From positions 806,001 through 870,000 of the forward strand of contig NZ_SJOD01000001.1 in the NCBI RefSeq assembly GCF_004331175.1: 64,000 nt of DNA. Direction: 5' to 3'. Origin of the DNA: Acinetobacter sp. ANC 4178 (GTDB lineage Bacteria > Pseudomonadota > Gammaproteobacteria > Pseudomonadales > Moraxellaceae). Below are positions 1,062-22,948 of this stretch, in pieces (the stretch's first letter is position 1; every line of letters starts with the position of its first letter). Under the pieces are notes generated by a model, which was not told the origin of the DNA, did not search any database, and saw only the letters and a list, made by a program, of their open reading frames with translations. A program made the position numbers and the translations under genes.

Positions 1062-2012
1062 TTAGTAACTCGGCTCTTCCTGCTTTAAGCCACCAAAACG
1101 CTTATAGAATTGTGGATGTGCAGGTGGCATTGAACCTTCAGACGTCCGTGCGATGTCGAGGAAGAATTCATCCCCTGCCAGCACCACGGTTTGATACAGA
1201 TTACTGCTTAAATTACGTGAATTGAGCGACAGCCAGTTCGATGGCAATAATTCAAAAGGTAAATTTGGATCTTTCAGTAAAATTCGACGATATTGATGAA
1301 TCAATAGAATACGAATCTGAAACGCTTGCATCGGATTCAATTCTTCTTCGCTTTCGACCAAATTAAAGAATTCTCTGAAATCACTGATGAACTTTTCATA
1401 ACGCTGATGCAGCTCTTGTACTGGCCAATTGATTTCGACCATACGTTTTACCGTTGGATAAGACTCTTGCCATAACTGCAAGGCTTCTGCTTTAAAGATT
1501 ACCACTTGATCGGTCATTTTTAAGCTGAGCAACAGATTTTGTAATTTCAGATGATCACAGCCGGGATATGCCATAACATTGGTAGCGATATTGGCAAAAC
1601 CGAGCCATTCCAACTCTTTTTTCAAGGTGACTTTATTTTCCAGTTCCACCGAACTGAGTAAGACCAGATCCCATTTTTGGTCCCACTCTTGTTGAGTAAA
1701 ACTATAAATTTTCTGGTCTGCCATAATGAAACGTTGGCGACTGCTTTCCGTGACACGGTAGTAACTGGTGCGTCCAATTTTCTCGGAAATCAGCCAACCA
1801 TTTTGGACAAGGCGAAATACGGCTGTACGAACTGAACGCTCGTTAAAACCAAACACATCCATTAACTGAATTAAGCTGGCCAGACTAATAATGCCACCAC
1901 GGTGAAAAATACAGTCACCAAAGATGGTCATAATCAGCGAGGTACCGCTCAGTGCTTCGTTGCTAATGAAATCATCAATAACTTGTTTTAATTTTAGATT
2001 CATTTCGTTCAA
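1062..2012 (-). CDS. paaX: PaaX, phenylacetyl-CoA-responsive repressor
   Basis: This 316-residue protein matches the PaaX family: an N-terminal winged helix (about residues 20-100, including [20 protein letters not shown]), the central PaaX domain and the C-terminal PaaX-like domain. Family members repress paa promoters and release DNA when phenylacetyl-CoA binds. Here the gene is inside the operon, between paaK and paaY, so it should be autoregulated from the paaA promoter. The likely binding sites are the GATAC-N27-GTATC repeats at 11525-11561 and 13973-14009. Confidence 0.92.
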
Positions 2013-10535: not shown

Positions 10536-11480
10536 TTAAGCAACTTTCTGTGCTTGCTGCTGTTCTTGCTGTTTCTTGGCATACACTGCGGCAGATTCAC
10601 GTACCCATGCACCGCCTTCCCATGCTTTACGACGCGCTTCGATACGCTCGTGGTTACATGGGCCTTTGCCTGCAAGTACGTCAAAGAATTCATCCCAATT
10701 CACTTCACCAAATTCGTAATGACCTGTGTCTTCATTGAACTTTAAGTCTGGATCTGGAACGCTTAAACCAAGTTGCAGCACTTGCGGTACGGTGTTGTCG
10801 ACAAATTTTTGACGCAAGACATCATTACTGAAGAGTTTGACTTTCCATTGCATACTCTGTGCGCTGTTTGGAGAATTATCATCACTCGGGCCAAACATCA
10901 TCAGGGCTGGCCACCAAAAACGATTGACGGCATCTTGCGCCATTTGCTTTTGCTCTTCGGTGCCATTCGCCAATTGCATCATGGCTTCAAAACCTTGACG
11001 CTGATGGAAGCTTTCTTCTTTACAAATACGCACCATGGCACGCGCATAAGGACCATATGAAGTACGGCAAAGCGCAACCTGATTCACAATTGCAGCACCA
11101 TCCACCAACCAGCCAATCGCAGCAACATCTGCCCAAGTAAGCGTTGGATAGTTAAAAATCGATGAATATTTCATCCGACCCGCAATGAGCTTGTCCATCA
11201 TGTCATCACGGTCTGCACCTAAAGTTTCGGCGGCACTGTAGAGGTATAACGCATGCCCTGCTTCATCTTGGACTTTCGCCAACAATACGGCTTTACGTTT
11301 TAAGGTTGGCGCCCGTGTAATCCAGTTCCCTTCTGGCAACATCCCTACGACTTCAGAGTGTCCATGTTGACCAATTTGGCGAATTAAAGTTTTACGGTAA
11401 GCATCTGGCATCCAATCCTTTGGCTCAATTGAAATGTCCTTTTCAATGCGCTGATCAAAAGCTTGTTGTTGGTTATTCAT
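10536..11480 (-). CDS. paaA: PaaA, catalytic di-iron subunit of phenylacetyl-CoA epoxidase
   Basis: This is the oxygenase subunit that inserts one O2 atom across C1-C2 of phenylacetyl-CoA. It has 314 residues from the start at 11480 ([12 protein letters not shown]), which has GAGGG just upstream; the frame is open to 11543 but that extension lies over the promoter. Iron ligands are in [17 protein letters not shown] and [16 protein letters not shown], the two E-x2-H motifs. First gene of the twelve-gene operon. Confidence 0.94.
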
Positions 11481-11514
11481 TTTTCCCTCACTTATCCCAA
11501 GTGTCGATACAATT

Positions 11515-11543
11515 AAATTAAAACGATACAAAAATAAAATCAA
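11515..11543 (-). promoter_or_regulatory. Predicted sigma-70 promoter of the paaA operon
   Basis: On the minus strand TTGATT (11538-11543) and TAATTT (11515-11520) are separated by 17 bases. The start site would lie about 30 bases upstream of the paaA ATG. One half of the inverted repeat at 11525-11561 falls in the spacer and the other just upstream of the -35 box, a geometry suited to repression. Predicted by eye; no start site is known. Confidence 0.5.
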
Positions 11544-11561
11544 TATTAATTTTTAGGTATC
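11525..11561. promoter_or_regulatory. Proposed PaaX operator at paaA (GATAC-N27-GTATC)
   Basis: GATAC (11525-11529) and GTATC (11557-11561) form an inverted repeat with exactly 27 bases between the halves. The E. coli PaaX site is TGATTC-N27-GAATCA as I recall it, so the spacing agrees and the core differs by one base. The same arrangement recurs at 13973-14009. A further GATAC lies at 11506-11510, 19 bases from the first half in direct orientation. Binding itself is inference. Confidence 0.6.
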
Positions 11562-11688
11562 ATTTAATTAAAACTCACATTCTTATTTAAATTATTGTTT
11601 TAAATGTATTTATTTAAGTTTATTTTTTATTTTGAATTTTTCTCATACGAATTACGATTGACTTTTACACGTTTTAATACCAAATTAT

Positions 11689-11724
11689 GAAACATCAAAA
11701 TTAAAAAACAGTTTAAAACGTATC
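11689..11724. promoter_or_regulatory. Weaker candidate PaaX site in front of paaZ
   Basis: GTATC at 11720-11724 ends 17 bases before the paaZ ATG. Its best partner is GAAAC at 11689-11693, with 26 rather than 27 bases between and one base changed from GATAC. A TTGACT at 11658-11663 could serve as a -35 box, but no good -10 is seen. It may be a low-affinity site or chance. Confidence 0.3.
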
Positions 11725-11741
11725 ATAAAAGGAGTTTTACC

Positions 11742-13850
11742 ATGCTAGAGTTAGACAACAACTCAGTGGAGCAACACGATACAACTGAAGACCACCAAAC
11801 TCAGACGCTTAAAACCCTGAGTTCGTTGGTGTATGGGCAGGAATATTCTTCTCAAGCGGAATTACGTACGGTTTATCATGCCATTACAGGTGAAGCGATT
11901 TACCAAGTCAGTAGCCACGGCATTAACACCAAAGCCATTGTGGAATATGCGAAAAAGCAAGGCGCAGAAATTGCCACATGGACTTTCCACCAACGCGCTA
12001 ATGCTCTGAAACAAGTGGCACAATATTTATTGGAGCGTAAAGAACACTATTACGAACTGGCTAAAGCAACGGGCTGTACCCGTAAAGATGCATGGATTGA
12101 TGTCGAAGGCGGCATTGGGACTTTATTTGCTTACTCAAGCCTTGTGCGTCGTGAACTCAGTGATGAAACGGCTTTGGTTGAAGATGCATGGATTCCATTG
12201 TCTAAACACGGCAATTTTGGTGCTAAACATATTCTGACCTCTAAAGCAGGTGTAGCACTGCATATTGATGCCTTTAACTTCCCAATTTGGGGCATGCTAG
12301 AAAAAATTGCACCAACCCTCTTGGCGGGTGTGCCATGTATTGTGAAACCTGCAACTGAAGGTGCTGAGCTTACCCATGCGGTGGTGAAAGATATCTTGGC
12401 AAGTGGCTTCTTACCAGTGGGTTCACTCCAGTTAATCTGTGGTCAAATTTATGATTTAATTGAACAATTAAACCCACAAGATACCGTTACCTTCACTGGT
12501 TCAGCAGCGACTGGTCAAAGCCTGCGCGCGAATCCACACTTAAACCAATACTCAATTCCATTCTGTATGGAAGCCGATTCTGTCAACAGTGCGATTTTGA
12601 CCGAACAAGCCAACGACGAAACCATTGATTTATTTGTGCGTGAAGTGTTCCGTGAAATGACCACCAAAGCAGGACAAAAATGTACGGCGATCCGTCGTGC
12701 CTTTGTACCAGCAGCTTTACTCGAAACCGTACAAACACGCTTAGTGGCTAAACTACAAAAAGTGGTAGTAGGTGATCCTGAGCTTGAAGGTGTCACCATG
12801 GGTGCATTGGCGAGTGTGAAACAAAAGTTTAGCGTTGCGGAAAAAGTGGAACAACTCAGCCAAGATGCCAAAGTTGTACTTGGCGGCCACTTACGCAAAG
12901 ACTTCGAAATTCAAGCAAAAAATCCTGAAAAAGGCGCTTTTTATCCACCAACTTTATTGGTCTGTGAACAACCTACCGAAGCCAAACATATTCACGAAGT
13001 GGAAGCATTTGGTCCAGTTTCTACCCTTATGCCCTACCAAAATCTAGCTGAATTGGCAGATTTGGTGGCGCGTGGTGAAGGCAGCTTGGTGGCATCCGTA
13101 GTGCGTAATGTCGATGAAAACATTGAAGCTTTAATTACCAAAATTGCCCCATGGCATGGTCGTGTACATATTTTAGATGCTGAAAGCGCGAAAGAAAGTA
13201 CAGGTCACGGTTCGCCACTTCCATACTTGGTGCATGGTGGTCCAGGACGTGCGGGTGGCGGTGAAGAACTCGGTGGTTTACGTGCAGTCAAACACTACAT
13301 GCAACGTACCGCTTTACAAGGTTCACCCAATGCCCTGACTCAAGTTGGTCATAGCTGGACAGCAGGTGCGCAAGTGTTTGAAGACCGCGTACATCCGTTC
13401 AAAAAAGACTTTGATGAACTGCGCGTGGGTGAACGTTTACTCACCGCACGTCGTACCGTCACCGAAGCAGATATCGTCAACTTTGCCTGCTTAAGTGGCG
13501 ACCATTTCTATGCACACATGGATAAAATTGCTGCGGCAGATTCGCTGTTTGGAGATCGTGTAGCGCATGGTTACTTTATTGTGTCCGCAGCAGCAGGTCT
13601 GTTTGTCGATGCCGCTGCAGGTCCAGTGATTGCCAACTATGGTATGGATAACCTGCGTTTTGTCGAACCCGTAAAAATTGGCGATACCATTCAAGTCGAA
13701 TTGACCTGTAAGCAAAAAACACCGAAACCTTTACGTGACCCCAAACAAAAACCTCATGGTGTCGTGGTTTGGGACATTAAAGTGAAAAACCAGCGTAATG
13801 AATTGGTGGCCACCTATGATATTTTGACCTTGGTTGAACGGGCTGCCTAA
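11742..13850 (+). CDS. paaZ: PaaZ, oxepin-CoA hydrolase / semialdehyde dehydrogenase
   Basis: This bifunctional ring-opening enzyme has 702 residues. The N-terminal aldehyde dehydrogenase domain (about 35-530) shows [29 protein letters not shown] and the catalytic-cysteine region [15 protein letters not shown]. The C-terminal MaoC-type hydratase domain (about 560-700) shows [20 protein letters not shown] and [14 protein letters not shown]. It hydrolyses oxepin-CoA and oxidises the reactive aldehyde. AAAGGAG lies just before the ATG. It is divergent from paaA with a 261-bp shared control region. Confidence 0.94.
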
Positions 13851-13864
13851 GTCTGATGTATAAT

Positions 13865-13894
13865 AAAAGAGAATCATATGATTCTCTTTTTTTT
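13865..13894 (+). terminator. Strong rho-independent terminator after paaZ
   Basis: AAAAGAGAATCAT and ATGATTCTCTTTT form a perfect, almost loopless palindrome ending in an eight-T run, 15 bases after the paaZ stop. It separates paaZ from the MFS gene, which therefore needs its own promoter. Confidence 0.85.
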
Positions 13895-13972
13895 ATAATA
13901 CAAAATAAATGTATCTTTTAATCACAAAGTGATTGACCCCGCCTGATTTAACCCGTAGATTAAAAATAAGAA

Positions 13973-14009
13973 GATACATAATAAAAACAAAAATAAATAT
14001 AAAAGTATC
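13973..14009. promoter_or_regulatory. Proposed PaaX operator before the MFS transporter
   Basis: GATAC (13973-13977) and GTATC (14005-14009) are separated by exactly 27 bases, as at paaA. The site ends 36 bases before the MFS start codon, so a bound repressor would cover its promoter region. The match of core and spacing to the paaA site is the reason for placing the transporter in the paa regulon. Confidence 0.55.
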
Positions 14010-14045
14010 AAATTAACTCAAACAGTCAGCACAGGAAGTTGCGTG

Positions 14046-15488
14046 ATGAACGATAAATCCATCGATATAGAACTGGTTGAAAGGACGATTCAACCAGAAG
14101 CACAAAATTTTGAACACAGCCCAGTTTCAGACCATTCGCCTACGCATGATGAAACGGCGCAAACTCGTAGCAGTGCCTACCATTGGTATGTGGTGGTCAT
14201 TTGTATGGTGGCCTACATTCTTTCTTTTGTAGATCGTCAAATTTTATCCTTGATGATTGAACCAATTAAGCATGACCTAATGCTGAGTGACACCCAATTC
14301 AGCTTGTTGCAAGGTTTAGCATTTTCATTGTTCTATGCTGTTATGGGTGTACCGATTGCAGCCCTTGCCGACAAAAAATCTCGGATTAAAATTATTGCAA
14401 TTGGGATTGCCTTCTGGAGTTTTGCTACGGCGGCCTGCGGTCTAAGCAAGAATTTTCTGCAAATGTTCCTGTCTCGCCTTGGTGTGGGTGCAGGTGAAGC
14501 AGCACTTTCTCCTGCCTTCTATTCCATTGTTGCCGACTTATTTCCAAAGGAAAAACTGGGGCGTGCCTTAGGTCTGTATGCCATTGGCGCATTCATTGGT
14601 TCGGGGCTTGCCTTTTTAATTGGGGGGTATGTGATTGGTTTACTCAAGAATGTGAACTTGGTGACGCTACCACTGATTGGCGAAATTAAAACTTGGCAAC
14701 TCACTTTTATGCTGGTCGGCTTACCAGGGGTTTTATTGGCCTTACTGATGATTCTGACTGTGCGGGAACCTGAACGTAAGGGTTTGAAAATTGGTCAAGA
14801 TGGTCAAGTGCTAAAAGCCTCTTTCAAAAATTCGATCGCCTTTATTAAAACCCATAAAAAGACTTTCTTCTGTCATTTTATCGGCTTCTCTTTTTACACC
14901 ATGATGCTGTACGCATTACTCGGTTGGGCACCCGCCTTCTATATGCGTAATCATGGTTTAGATGCTAGCCAAACAGGTTACATCCTTGGCACGATTATTT
15001 TGATTGCTAATACCTCGGGCGCATTATTCTGCGGATGGTTGATCGACTTTTTCTCTAAACGTGGTTATAGCGATGCAGCCATTCGTAGTGGCATGATTGG
15101 CTGTGCCGCCCTAATTATTCCAAGTGTATTATTCACCCAAGTCGATAATATGTACTTATCCTTTGCCCTGATTTTTGTGGCGATGTTCTTCTCGACTTTT
15201 CCAATTCCAGCATCAGCGGCAGCCACCCAAATGCTCACGCCCAACCAATTACGTGCCCAAGTCTCAGCCAAGTTCCTTTTGGTGTCAAACTTGATTGCTT
15301 TAGGTATTGGAACTACGGCAGTTGCTTTAATTACCGATAAATATTTCCAAAATACCGTGATGGTGGGCAATTCAATTTCAATTGTGAATGCTGTAGCAGG
15401 CGTACTCGGTACATTCTTACTGTACAAAGGCTGCCAATATTATCGTGACAGTATTCAAGTGGAAAAACAGGCTGAACACGCACAATAA
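14046..15488 (+). CDS. MFS transporter, probably for phenylacetate or a related aromatic acid
   Basis: This major facilitator protein has about 480 residues and 12 predicted membrane segments. The first follows SSAYHWYVVVICMVAYILSF, with the signature ADKKSRIKIIAIGIAFWSF after the second segment pair and RLGVGAGEAALSPAFYSIVAD in the fourth. An acidic and polar N-terminal tail of about 45 residues precedes the membrane part. ATG at 14046 is preferred over GTG at 14043 because AGGA lies at a good distance. Substrate is inferred only from its position after paaZ and the shared operator. Confidence 0.82.
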   Translation: MNDKSIDIELVERTIQPEAQNFEHSPVSDHSPTHDETAQTRSSAYHWYVVVICMVAYILSFVDRQILSLMIEPIKHDLMLSDTQFSLLQGLAFSLFYAVMGVPIAALADKKSRIKIIAIGIAFWSFATAACGLSKNFLQMFLSRLGVGAGEAALSPAFYSIVADLFPKEKLGRALGLYAIGAFIGSGLAFLIGGYVIGLLKNVNLVTLPLIGEIKTWQLTFMLVGLPGVLLALLMILTVREPERKGLKIGQDGQVLKASFKNSIAFIKTHKKTFFCHFIGFSFYTMMLYALLGWAPAFYMRNHGLDASQTGYILGTIILIANTSGALFCGWLIDFFSKRGYSDAAIRSGMIGCAALIIPSVLFTQVDNMYLSFALIFVAMFFSTFPIPASAAATQMLTPNQLRAQVSAKFLLVSNLIALGIGTTAVALITDKYFQNTVMVGNSISIVNAVAGVLGTFLLYKGCQYYRDSIQVEKQAEHAQ

Positions 15489-15756: not shown

Positions 15757-16665
15757 CTAATGGGTAATATTCAAACCATTTTTTTTCAAATTTGGATATT
15801 CATATGGAGCATCTTCAGCTGGATAACGTAAATTTTTAACACCATAAATTTGTGCAATATTCCATATGATACTTTCACCAGCAGGCAATAAGTTTGGCTG
15901 AACTTTATAAATAGCATCTTGATAAGCTGTATCACTATCAATAAATTCCCAACCTTCTGCCTTGAAGGAATTGATGATGTCTCTTAGCCAAGCTGCATTA
16001 ATCGCTCTAACATGAAGTAAAAGCACATGCTTTGGTGAACGTCCTAATGTTTCTAGCGCTAAATTAGCGTAATATTTTGCTCGATCAAGTAGATGGAAAA
16101 TATAGGCTTGTTTTAATTTTTCCAAGCTTGCTTGATCTTTTTCTTGCTGATATTTCAAAAATAATTGGTTGTAATACCAATCACTAGCATCAATGCTAAC
16201 AGCACCAGATTGATAGTTATTGGTAGTAAGCCATTTTCGTACACCATCCCTTTTTTCTAGAGTATTTCCCTCTTTAAGAAATGGAAAGCGATAACGTGGT
16301 ACAAAGCCTTCTAATGAAGAAAAGGCTTGATGACCTTCCTGCATGTCTTGTAAATAATCAGATAAATTCACTTCATTTTTATTCAGATTTAGATGTAAAT
16401 TTCCATGATTACCAATACGATGTCCTTGTTTCCCCCAATTAGAAACAATATTCAGCCCTTCTGCTCCTCCAATTTTACTTATACTGGGATAAAAGATTGC
16501 ATGAATTTTATTTTGTTTTAAGGCACTTAAAATATTCTCATTGATTTGTTGGGCTTCTGAATTAATTGATGGATCTAAACCATCATCGAAACTTAATGCT
16601 ACGCTTTTTGCGATAGCTACATTAGATAAACCTAAGAAAAAACTTAAGATAATTTTTTTAAGCAT
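15757..16665 (-). CDS. Secreted polysaccharide deacetylase family protein
   Basis: This 302-residue protein has a Sec signal peptide (MLKKIILSFFLGLSNVAIAK) and a NodB-type fold. VALSFDDGLDP carries the paired Asp of motif 1, GHRIGNHGNLHLNL the metal-binding His-x3-His of motif 2, PRYRFPFLKEG motif 3 and VLLLHVRAINA the late catalytic His. Members remove acetyl groups from peptidoglycan, chitin-like or biofilm glycans; the substrate here is not known. It stands alone, with no partner gene in its strand. Confidence 0.8.
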   Translation of the reverse strand: MLKKIILSFFLGLSNVAIAKSVALSFDDGLDPSINSEAQQINENILSALKQNKIHAIFYPSISKIGGAEGLNIVSNWGKQGHRIGNHGNLHLNLNKNEVNLSDYLQDMQEGHQAFSSLEGFVPRYRFPFLKEGNTLEKRDGVRKWLTTNNYQSGAVSIDASDWYYNQLFLKYQQEKDQASLEKLKQAYIFHLLDRAKYYANLALETLGRSPKHVLLLHVRAINAAWLRDIINSFKAEGWEFIDSDTAYQDAIYKVQPNLLPAGESIIWNIAQIYGVKNLRYPAEDAPYEYPNLKKNGLNITH

Positions 16666-22300: not shown

Positions 22301-22948
22301 GGCTTTGTTGCATAAACATTAAAAAGTTAAATTTACCCAGATCTACACAAATTTAAGTTACAACTCGAGTATGTGGTCGGCCTAATTCCGTAAACTTATT
22401 TAAGACTGCCACTCGTGTATGAATCTCATTCACTTTGCTTTGAAAGTTCCTAGCACGGAGTTTATCCCCCAATAATTTGATGCAATGCATCTTGGTTTCA
22501 ACCAAACTTCGGCGATGATAGCCTGACCACTTTTTCCATATGGTTCCGCCTAAACGTTTAACTGCTCGAAGTAATTCATTTCGCTCTCGCGAATGAACTT
22601 TCGTATCTTTCCATGGCTTCGCATTTTTCCTAGGTGGAATCACCACATGTGCTTGCCGATCCGCAATGACCTGACGGCACTGCTTAGTATCGTAAGCTCC
22701 ATCACTATAGACGGAATGGAGTTGTTCATCTTGTGGAATCTGATTGAGTAAATCACCGAGTACCTGTGCATCACTCACAATGTTGGTCGTGAGCTGAACA
22801 GCTCGTATTTGTAAGGTTTCAGCATTTATACCAATATGTAATTTACGCCATTGGCGGCGATATTCAGGGTGATGTTTCTTTCGTTTCCATTCTCCTTCAC
22901 CTAGAAACATTAAGCCAGTAGAGTCGACAAGTAGATGATGAGTGAATC
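22301..22948 (-). mobile_element. IS5-family element remnant, 3' half of transposase
   Basis: GGCTTTGTTGCATAAA at 22301 is an IS5-type terminal repeat. The frame from about 22948 to 22353 encodes the catalytic half of a DDE transposase: LLVDSTGLMFLGEGEW has the first Asp region, SVYSDGAYDTKQCR the second Asp, and RRSLVETKMHCIKLLGDKL the Glu region. The N-terminal third is missing; it is replaced at about 22948 by part of an unrelated IS481 element. Confidence 0.75.

Follow-up and report, generated by a model that had tools for sequence, protein, structure and literature searches.

Inverted Repeats at the Phenylacetate Locus

The window, the whole 64,000-nucleotide stretch of Acinetobacter DNA analyzed here, carries a phenylacetate (paa) locus whose genes were named by their matches to Pfam and NCBIfam. 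The first gene of a paaA–K run, paaA (10536–11480, minus strand; TIGR02156, 515 bits), diverges from paaZ (11742–13850, plus strand; TIGR02278, 954.7 bits), beyond which lies an MFS transporter gene (14043–15488, plus strand; PF07690, 149.8 bits). The repressor gene, paaX (1062–2003, minus strand), lies between paaK, 65 bp upstream on the same strand, and paaY. Its product is a PaaX family member by both TIGR02277, whose cut-off it barely exceeds (264.8 bits against 264.55), and Pfam, as the domains PaaX, PaaX_M and PaaX_C (PF07848, 86.0 bits; PF20803, 30.5 bits; PF08223, 83.2 bits) all score over their cut-offs. Residues 8–313 also match a solved PaaX structure, 8a39 (E 1.2e-64), which we take to be that of the E. 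coli protein. Another open reading frame (15757–16665), guessed from its size to be PaaX, was ruled out since Pfam identifies it as a polysaccharide deacetylase; this gene and a transposase gene (22353–22910) are neighbors of the paa locus.

An earlier note on this DNA had described two inverted repeats with an identical five-base core and a 27-base gap, and both were found exactly, as GATAC-N27-GTATC at 11525–11561 and 13973–14009. They are the only exact occurrences in the 3.39 Mb genome, where a reversed control pattern has none, and 100 dinucleotide-preserving shuffles of the window gave a mean of 0.02 matches, with two matches in no shuffle. The first, a predicted PaaX operator over the paaA promoter (minus strand; TGATAC-N27-GTATCG reading towards paaA), is located in the 261-bp gap between paaA and paaZ, 44 bp 5′ of the paaA start codon. 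The second, a predicted PaaX operator on the plus strand (AGATAC-N27-GTATCA), is located 33 bp 5′ of the MFS gene and 3′ of a terminator-like hairpin that follows paaZ (13865–13890, plus strand). A weak promoter-like pair is present upstream of the second repeat at 13933–13961, although 1.8 such pairs would be expected by chance.

Alignment placed a −35-like hexamer, TTGATT (11538–11543, minus strand), in the middle of the paaA repeat. In the 30 leaders aligned, out of 72 from the genus, this position is conserved as TTGATT or, in the other Acinetobacter clade, as TTGACT/TTGACA, and the hexamer is therefore a candidate −35 box, even though a promoter scan did not recover TTGATT within a full promoter. 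An extra GATAC half-site (11506–11510), whose start is 19 bp away from that of the paaA repeat, is shared by some of the aligned relatives only.

A third, weaker candidate operator lies 5′ of paaZ at 11689–11724 (minus strand; TGATAC-N26-GTTTCA towards paaA, equivalent to GAAAC-N26-GTATC on the plus strand). A repeat with at most one mismatch is found on the paaZ side in 37 of the 72 Acinetobacter loci, the window included, and a relaxed pattern, for which no chance rate was computed, in 68 of them, with L139, L149, and L152 lacking it and L168 being truncated. The second half of this site is degenerate (GTTTC here, GATTC in the other clade, as GATTCA), and in this genome its E-value of 1.42 with the operator profile described below is inside the noise. 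The corresponding place in 6 of 11 Enterobacteriaceae has TGTTAC-N28-GAATCA, which suggests that half-sites ending in TAC may be acceptable even to the enterobacterial PaaX.

Conservation of the Repeat in Acinetobacter

PaaA is present in 72 of 149 Acinetobacter genomes, and the paa stretches of the 71 besides the window were taken for comparison. The pathway is thus patchy in the genus; an internal stop was seen in one of the PaaA genes (genome G070) and in two of the MFS orthologs (G096 and G067). The exact GATAC repeat occurs in 70 of the 72 paaA leaders, at nearly the same place throughout, and the remaining two (L153 and L154) have it with one mismatch, although the 72 loci are related and these counts are not independent events. 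The earlier note had made conservation at other Acinetobacter paaA genes one of the points on which its proposal could fail, and the pattern proved to be conserved. In the exact sites the core is always GATAC, with T or C before it in most. A similar result came from the MFS gene linked to paa, 36 of whose 39 leaders have the exact repeat.

When every 5-mer was counted as an inverted repeat at 26–28 bp, GATAC ranked top in both sets of leaders, with 70/72 for paaA (runner-up 31/72) and 36/39 for the MFS gene (runner-up 8/39). The gap is N27 in 42 of the paaA leaders, N28 in 26, and N26 in two, so that the strict 27-bp spacing suggested by the window holds for both sites there but widens to N26–N28 across the genus. 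In the 71 Acinetobacter stretches the counts at gaps of 26, 27, 28, and 29 were 11, 42, 26, and 5, and the other gaps tested (15–25 and 30–44) gave 0–8 of 71, with the 8 at gap 42.

The repressor accompanies the repeat. By tblastn, PaaX was found in 69 of the 70 Acinetobacter loci with a paaA leader of at least 250 bp, and the last of these loci stops at a contig end. This set of 70, which omits L168 (truncated leader) and the window, has the exact repeat in 68 leaders, compared with 70/72 overall.

Candidate Operator Letters and PaaX in Other Gammaproteobacteria

For E. coli, the operators that PaaX binds at Pa, Pz, and Px are given as TGATTC-N27-GAATCA in the available part of a review (PMC9493321). 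The window sites agree with this architecture, as the earlier note had proposed, in having inverted half-sites of about 6 bp some 27 bp apart, with one base of the core changed. The likeness extends to the genus, where two inverted half-sites 26–28 bp apart are found at divergent paaA/paaZ promoters with paaX beside the operon. The window differs from E. coli in three respects: the fourth core base is A where E. coli has T, a transporter gene is the second target, and paaX has no exact repeat ahead of it. Because the half-sites are not TGATTC, we file the window sites not as E. coli-type operators but as the GATAC form of the PaaX operator, that is, GATAC/GACAC repeats at 26–28 bp at paa loci with paaX.

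The Enterobacteriaceae have the GATTC repeat in 11 of 11 loci, spaced N27 or N28, and GATAC in none; GATTC repeats were found in this set only. Seven of the 11 (L010–L012, L014, L017, L019, and L020) also have GATTC-N26-GAATC at the start of paaX, ~19.6 kb, which is consistent with the known autoregulation at Px. The situation is reversed in 20 non-enterobacterial gammaproteobacterial loci, of which 11 have a GATAC repeat at 26–28 bp and none a GATTC repeat. As whole stretches were counted, some of these GATAC matches may be accidental; three G+C-rich 5-mers occur in 12 of the same 20 loci, one above GATAC.

Seven of eight paaA leaders from Pseudomonas, Marinobacter, Billgrantia, and Marinospirillum match GA[T/C]AC-N27/28-GT[A/G]TC, although the stretch covered lacks PaaX in six of these eight loci, so that a pairing with PaaX is presumptive there. 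Three Pseudomonas leaders match GACAC-N27-GTATC, and L076 differs; by eye, the four Pseudomonas leaders (L049, L055, L064, and L076) have an outer GATAC half-site 44–45 bp from GTATC, making three half-sites in a row. Among 12 further gammaproteobacterial loci with a PaaX of at least 30% identity, eight have a GATAC/GACAC repeat: an exact GATAC repeat beside paaX, paaA, paaZ, or paaY in six (L188, L189, L191, L192, L193, and L195), and a GACAC/GATAC repeat before paaX in L184 and in the gap beside paaY in L187. No site was found in the other four (L185, L186, L190, and L194), some of whose stretches are short.

Three repeats were sought in 54 paaA leaders from other groups whose loci have no PaaX match of 100 bits, and none was found. 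One Lysobacterales bin and one Burkholderiales bin are among these 54, and two of the loci (L041 and L073) have weak PaaX-like matches (25–26% identity). Seven remote PaaX-like loci (L196–L202) were counted apart, and neither GATAC nor GATTC is among their eight top 5-mers.

That GATAC or GACAC is found at paa genes well beyond Acinetobacter indicates that the GATAC type is widespread and that the enterobacterial GATTC looks like a departure from it, which would make E. coli and its kin the apparent exception in PaaX operator letters. Searches with the PaaX consensus of E. coli may accordingly overlook sites in many other gammaproteobacteria. The PaaX site of Pseudomonas sp. Y2 was reportedly determined by del Peso-Santos et al. 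in 2006. The review describes it as "a similar sequence" in the part available (PMC9493321), and to judge from the four other Pseudomonas leaders it is probably of the GATAC/GACAC type.

The predicted structure of the window PaaX (mean pLDDT 89.7, 18 sequences) places the recognition helix at residues 55–67 and the wing at 71–84. Across the 18 aligned PaaX sequences, four residues do not vary: R56, R59, T60, and R64. The neighboring positions 54 and 57 vary by lineage. Residue 54 is N in 15 Acinetobacter rows (T in L153), with S or A at 57; two Pseudomonas rows have N and L; 12 further gammaproteobacterial loci have N (8), S (3), or T (1) at 54 and L at 57 in all 12; and nine Enterobacteriaceae rows have G and F. 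This comparison is based on the rows printed, the other Acinetobacter rows having been aligned but not inspected singly. Since the change at positions 54 and 57 relative to the operator represents a single split in the family, it is a correlation and not proof. As the operator base and the recognition helix change together, two-residue swaps would offer a direct test of PaaX specificity.

Proposed Regulon, Alternatives, and a Candidate Mode of Control

A sequence-only profile built from 29 sites was run over 15 whole genomes, and its best match was the paa locus in all 15, many of these sites being in the model. In the genome of the window, the paaA site was the best genome-wide (E 2.8e-8), followed by the MFS site (2.6e-4), and the best place away from paa had an E-value of 0.39. 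As the paaA and MFS sites are in the model, their own scores are partly circular, and the informative part of the result is the absence of other strong matches. Five weak profile matches in other genomes (G061 1915635, G010 3378807, G054 1267741, G103 114324, and G036 C27 81818) were set aside; three are inside open frames, one is over a frame end, and that of G061 has no frame of at least 100 residues around it.

Searching genomes for targets with the bare pattern was too noisy and was rejected. TGATAC-N26-28-GTATC matches 143 of the 149 Acinetobacter genomes, some of them without paa, and its four matches in this genome equal the control; a two-mismatch operator pattern gave 128 matches here vs. 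83 for the control. A single-mismatch place before an SDF symporter gene (C1:308161, one of eight away from paa) is probably due to chance and was set aside because it overlaps the gene start.

Orthologs of the MFS transporter, at 79% identity or more, are found in 39 of the 149 Acinetobacter genomes, and all 39 are among the 72 with paaA. The carrier is a probable uptake transporter of phenylacetate or another aromatic acid, and this analysis names it as part of the predicted regulon. A second kind of transporter may also be linked to the site. Genome G036, in which the MFS gene had no match, carries one more site, absent from the model (E 0.0028; GATAC-N26-GTATC at L238:4220-4255), between an MHS-family transporter gene and a divergent aldehyde dehydrogenase gene, on a contig other than that of paa. 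In L139, two GATAC repeats 150 bp apart (14973 and 15123) precede an MHS transporter gene adjoining paaZ, and its product is 76% identical to the MHS transporter of G036. The possibility that an MFS paralog encoded elsewhere (57–61% identical) is under the same control was dropped, as the exact repeat is missing from all 10 stretches read, five of which have degenerate matches, all of them outside the 700 bp before the gene. The occurrence of sites in MFS and MHS leaders, and not at the paralog, indicates that the site goes with the carrier linked to paa, whichever subfamily this belongs to. We put forward, tentatively and at somewhat less than even odds, a broader history: PaaX operators may have split by lineage, with GATAC/GACAC in many gammaproteobacteria, GATTC in Enterobacteriaceae, and residues 54 and 57 changing in step, and the Acinetobacter operator may have moved between unlike transporter genes of two MFS subfamilies, so that PaaX would keep control of uptake whichever carrier is present.

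We consider the repeats to be operators of PaaX, the phenylacetyl-CoA-responsive repressor, with a probability of close to nine in ten. The PaaX regulon proposed in the earlier note is supported by the E. coli-like architecture, the divergent promoters, the genus-wide occurrence in paa bearers, and the presence of paaX in the same gene run; against it weighs the one base by which the paaA and MFS cores depart from the E. coli consensus. It seems improbable that the repeats instead belong to another regulator, for instance a TetR protein of the PaaR type or a global regulator, with PaaX acting elsewhere. A 2026 survey does report, in its available text, that PaaR and PaaX are predominantly together in the gene context of the Acinetobacter group (PMC13186573), and GacSA and others are described as also controlling paa in A. 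baumannii (PMC9239106, accessible part). However, the open reading frames tested to both sides of the locus, within the window's first 26 kb and the 7 kb to its left, included no TetR-type gene for PaaR, and PaaR sites are compact palindromes of about 15 bp in the review's accessible section (PMC9493321), rather than half-sites 27 bp apart. The spacing equals that of the published PaaX site, and the repeat is missing from all 54 other-group loci that have no PaaX match of 100 bits.

The remaining explanations are less credible still. That the recognition sequence of PaaX was newly altered in Acinetobacter alone, as the earlier note had suggested, is very unlikely: every exact Acinetobacter site is one base off the E. 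coli GATTC, but GATAC/GACAC at the same spacing is found at paa genes of Pseudomonas, Marinobacter, Marinospirillum, Billgrantia, and further gammaproteobacterial families, and the 11-to-0 count in the 20 non-enterobacterial loci shows that the suggestion was wrong in scope. Least credible is that the repeats arose by chance, or simply from the AT-richness of promoter DNA, and that no regulator is involved. Relaxed forms of the pattern are indeed common across AT-rich Acinetobacter genomes with or without paa, but the repeat is exact in nearly all paaA and MFS leaders while the adjoining bases vary, its gap preference is sharp, and no shuffled window reproduced the pair.

If PaaX is the regulator, its two DNA-binding heads would hold (T/C)GATAC half-sites 31–33 bp apart, approximately three helical turns and hence on the same face of the DNA. 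The half-sites flank or overlap the putative promoters of paaA–K, paaZ, and the probable aromatic-acid transporter gene, so that bound PaaX would hinder RNA polymerase. Phenylacetate, once taken up, would be converted to phenylacetyl-CoA, which would release PaaX and induce all three units. The gene paaX lacks an exact site and lies downstream of paaK in the same orientation, and it is therefore probably transcribed from the repressed paaA promoter; PaaX levels would then rise with the pathway, as negative feedback. For paaA, hindrance of RNA polymerase is a tentative mode of repression, since in E. coli PaaX at Pa is described as not competing with RNA polymerase as it does at Px and Pz (PMC9493321, available part). 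The same source reports that PaaR, an unrelated TetR repressor of Burkholderia and Thermus with a compact palindrome, also represses paa in response to phenylacetyl-CoA.

The paa pathway of Acinetobacter is tied to stress responses and infection in a study, available to us in part, in which PaaX was deleted in A. baumannii 17978 (PMC9239106), and the repeats offer a testable candidate operator for it. A PaaX iModulon, a co-expressed gene set, has been reported for A. baumannii AB5075 in work that drew on RegPrecise for AB0057, and the main text of which does not contain the word "motif" (PMC10878099). The main text of the 2026 survey covers the presence of PaaX and PaaR and contains neither "operator" nor "binding motif" (PMC13186573). 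No published Acinetobacter PaaX operator was met in the literature searched, but as subscription papers, the Y2 paper, and RegPrecise were outside its scope, the novelty of the GATAC letters is not established.

The paaA leader has an additional feature, a hairpin (CACTT-GGGAT-AAGTG; 11489–11503, minus strand) directly 5′ of the paaA ribosome-binding site. Of the 47 rows assigned to it by similarity, two were left out of the hairpin count, having 2 and 3 of 5 pairs. The hairpin keeps 5/5 pairs in 45 of the 72 leaders, all of one Acinetobacter clade, and its variants include G-U pairs and a single replacement of C-G by T-A that alters both sides. A GGA is present within 42 of the 45 loops, and CsrA is encoded in the genome. 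Together with the reported control by GacSA (PMC9239106, accessible part), this makes the hairpin a candidate CsrA/Rsm site that may link GacSA to paa and is worth testing.
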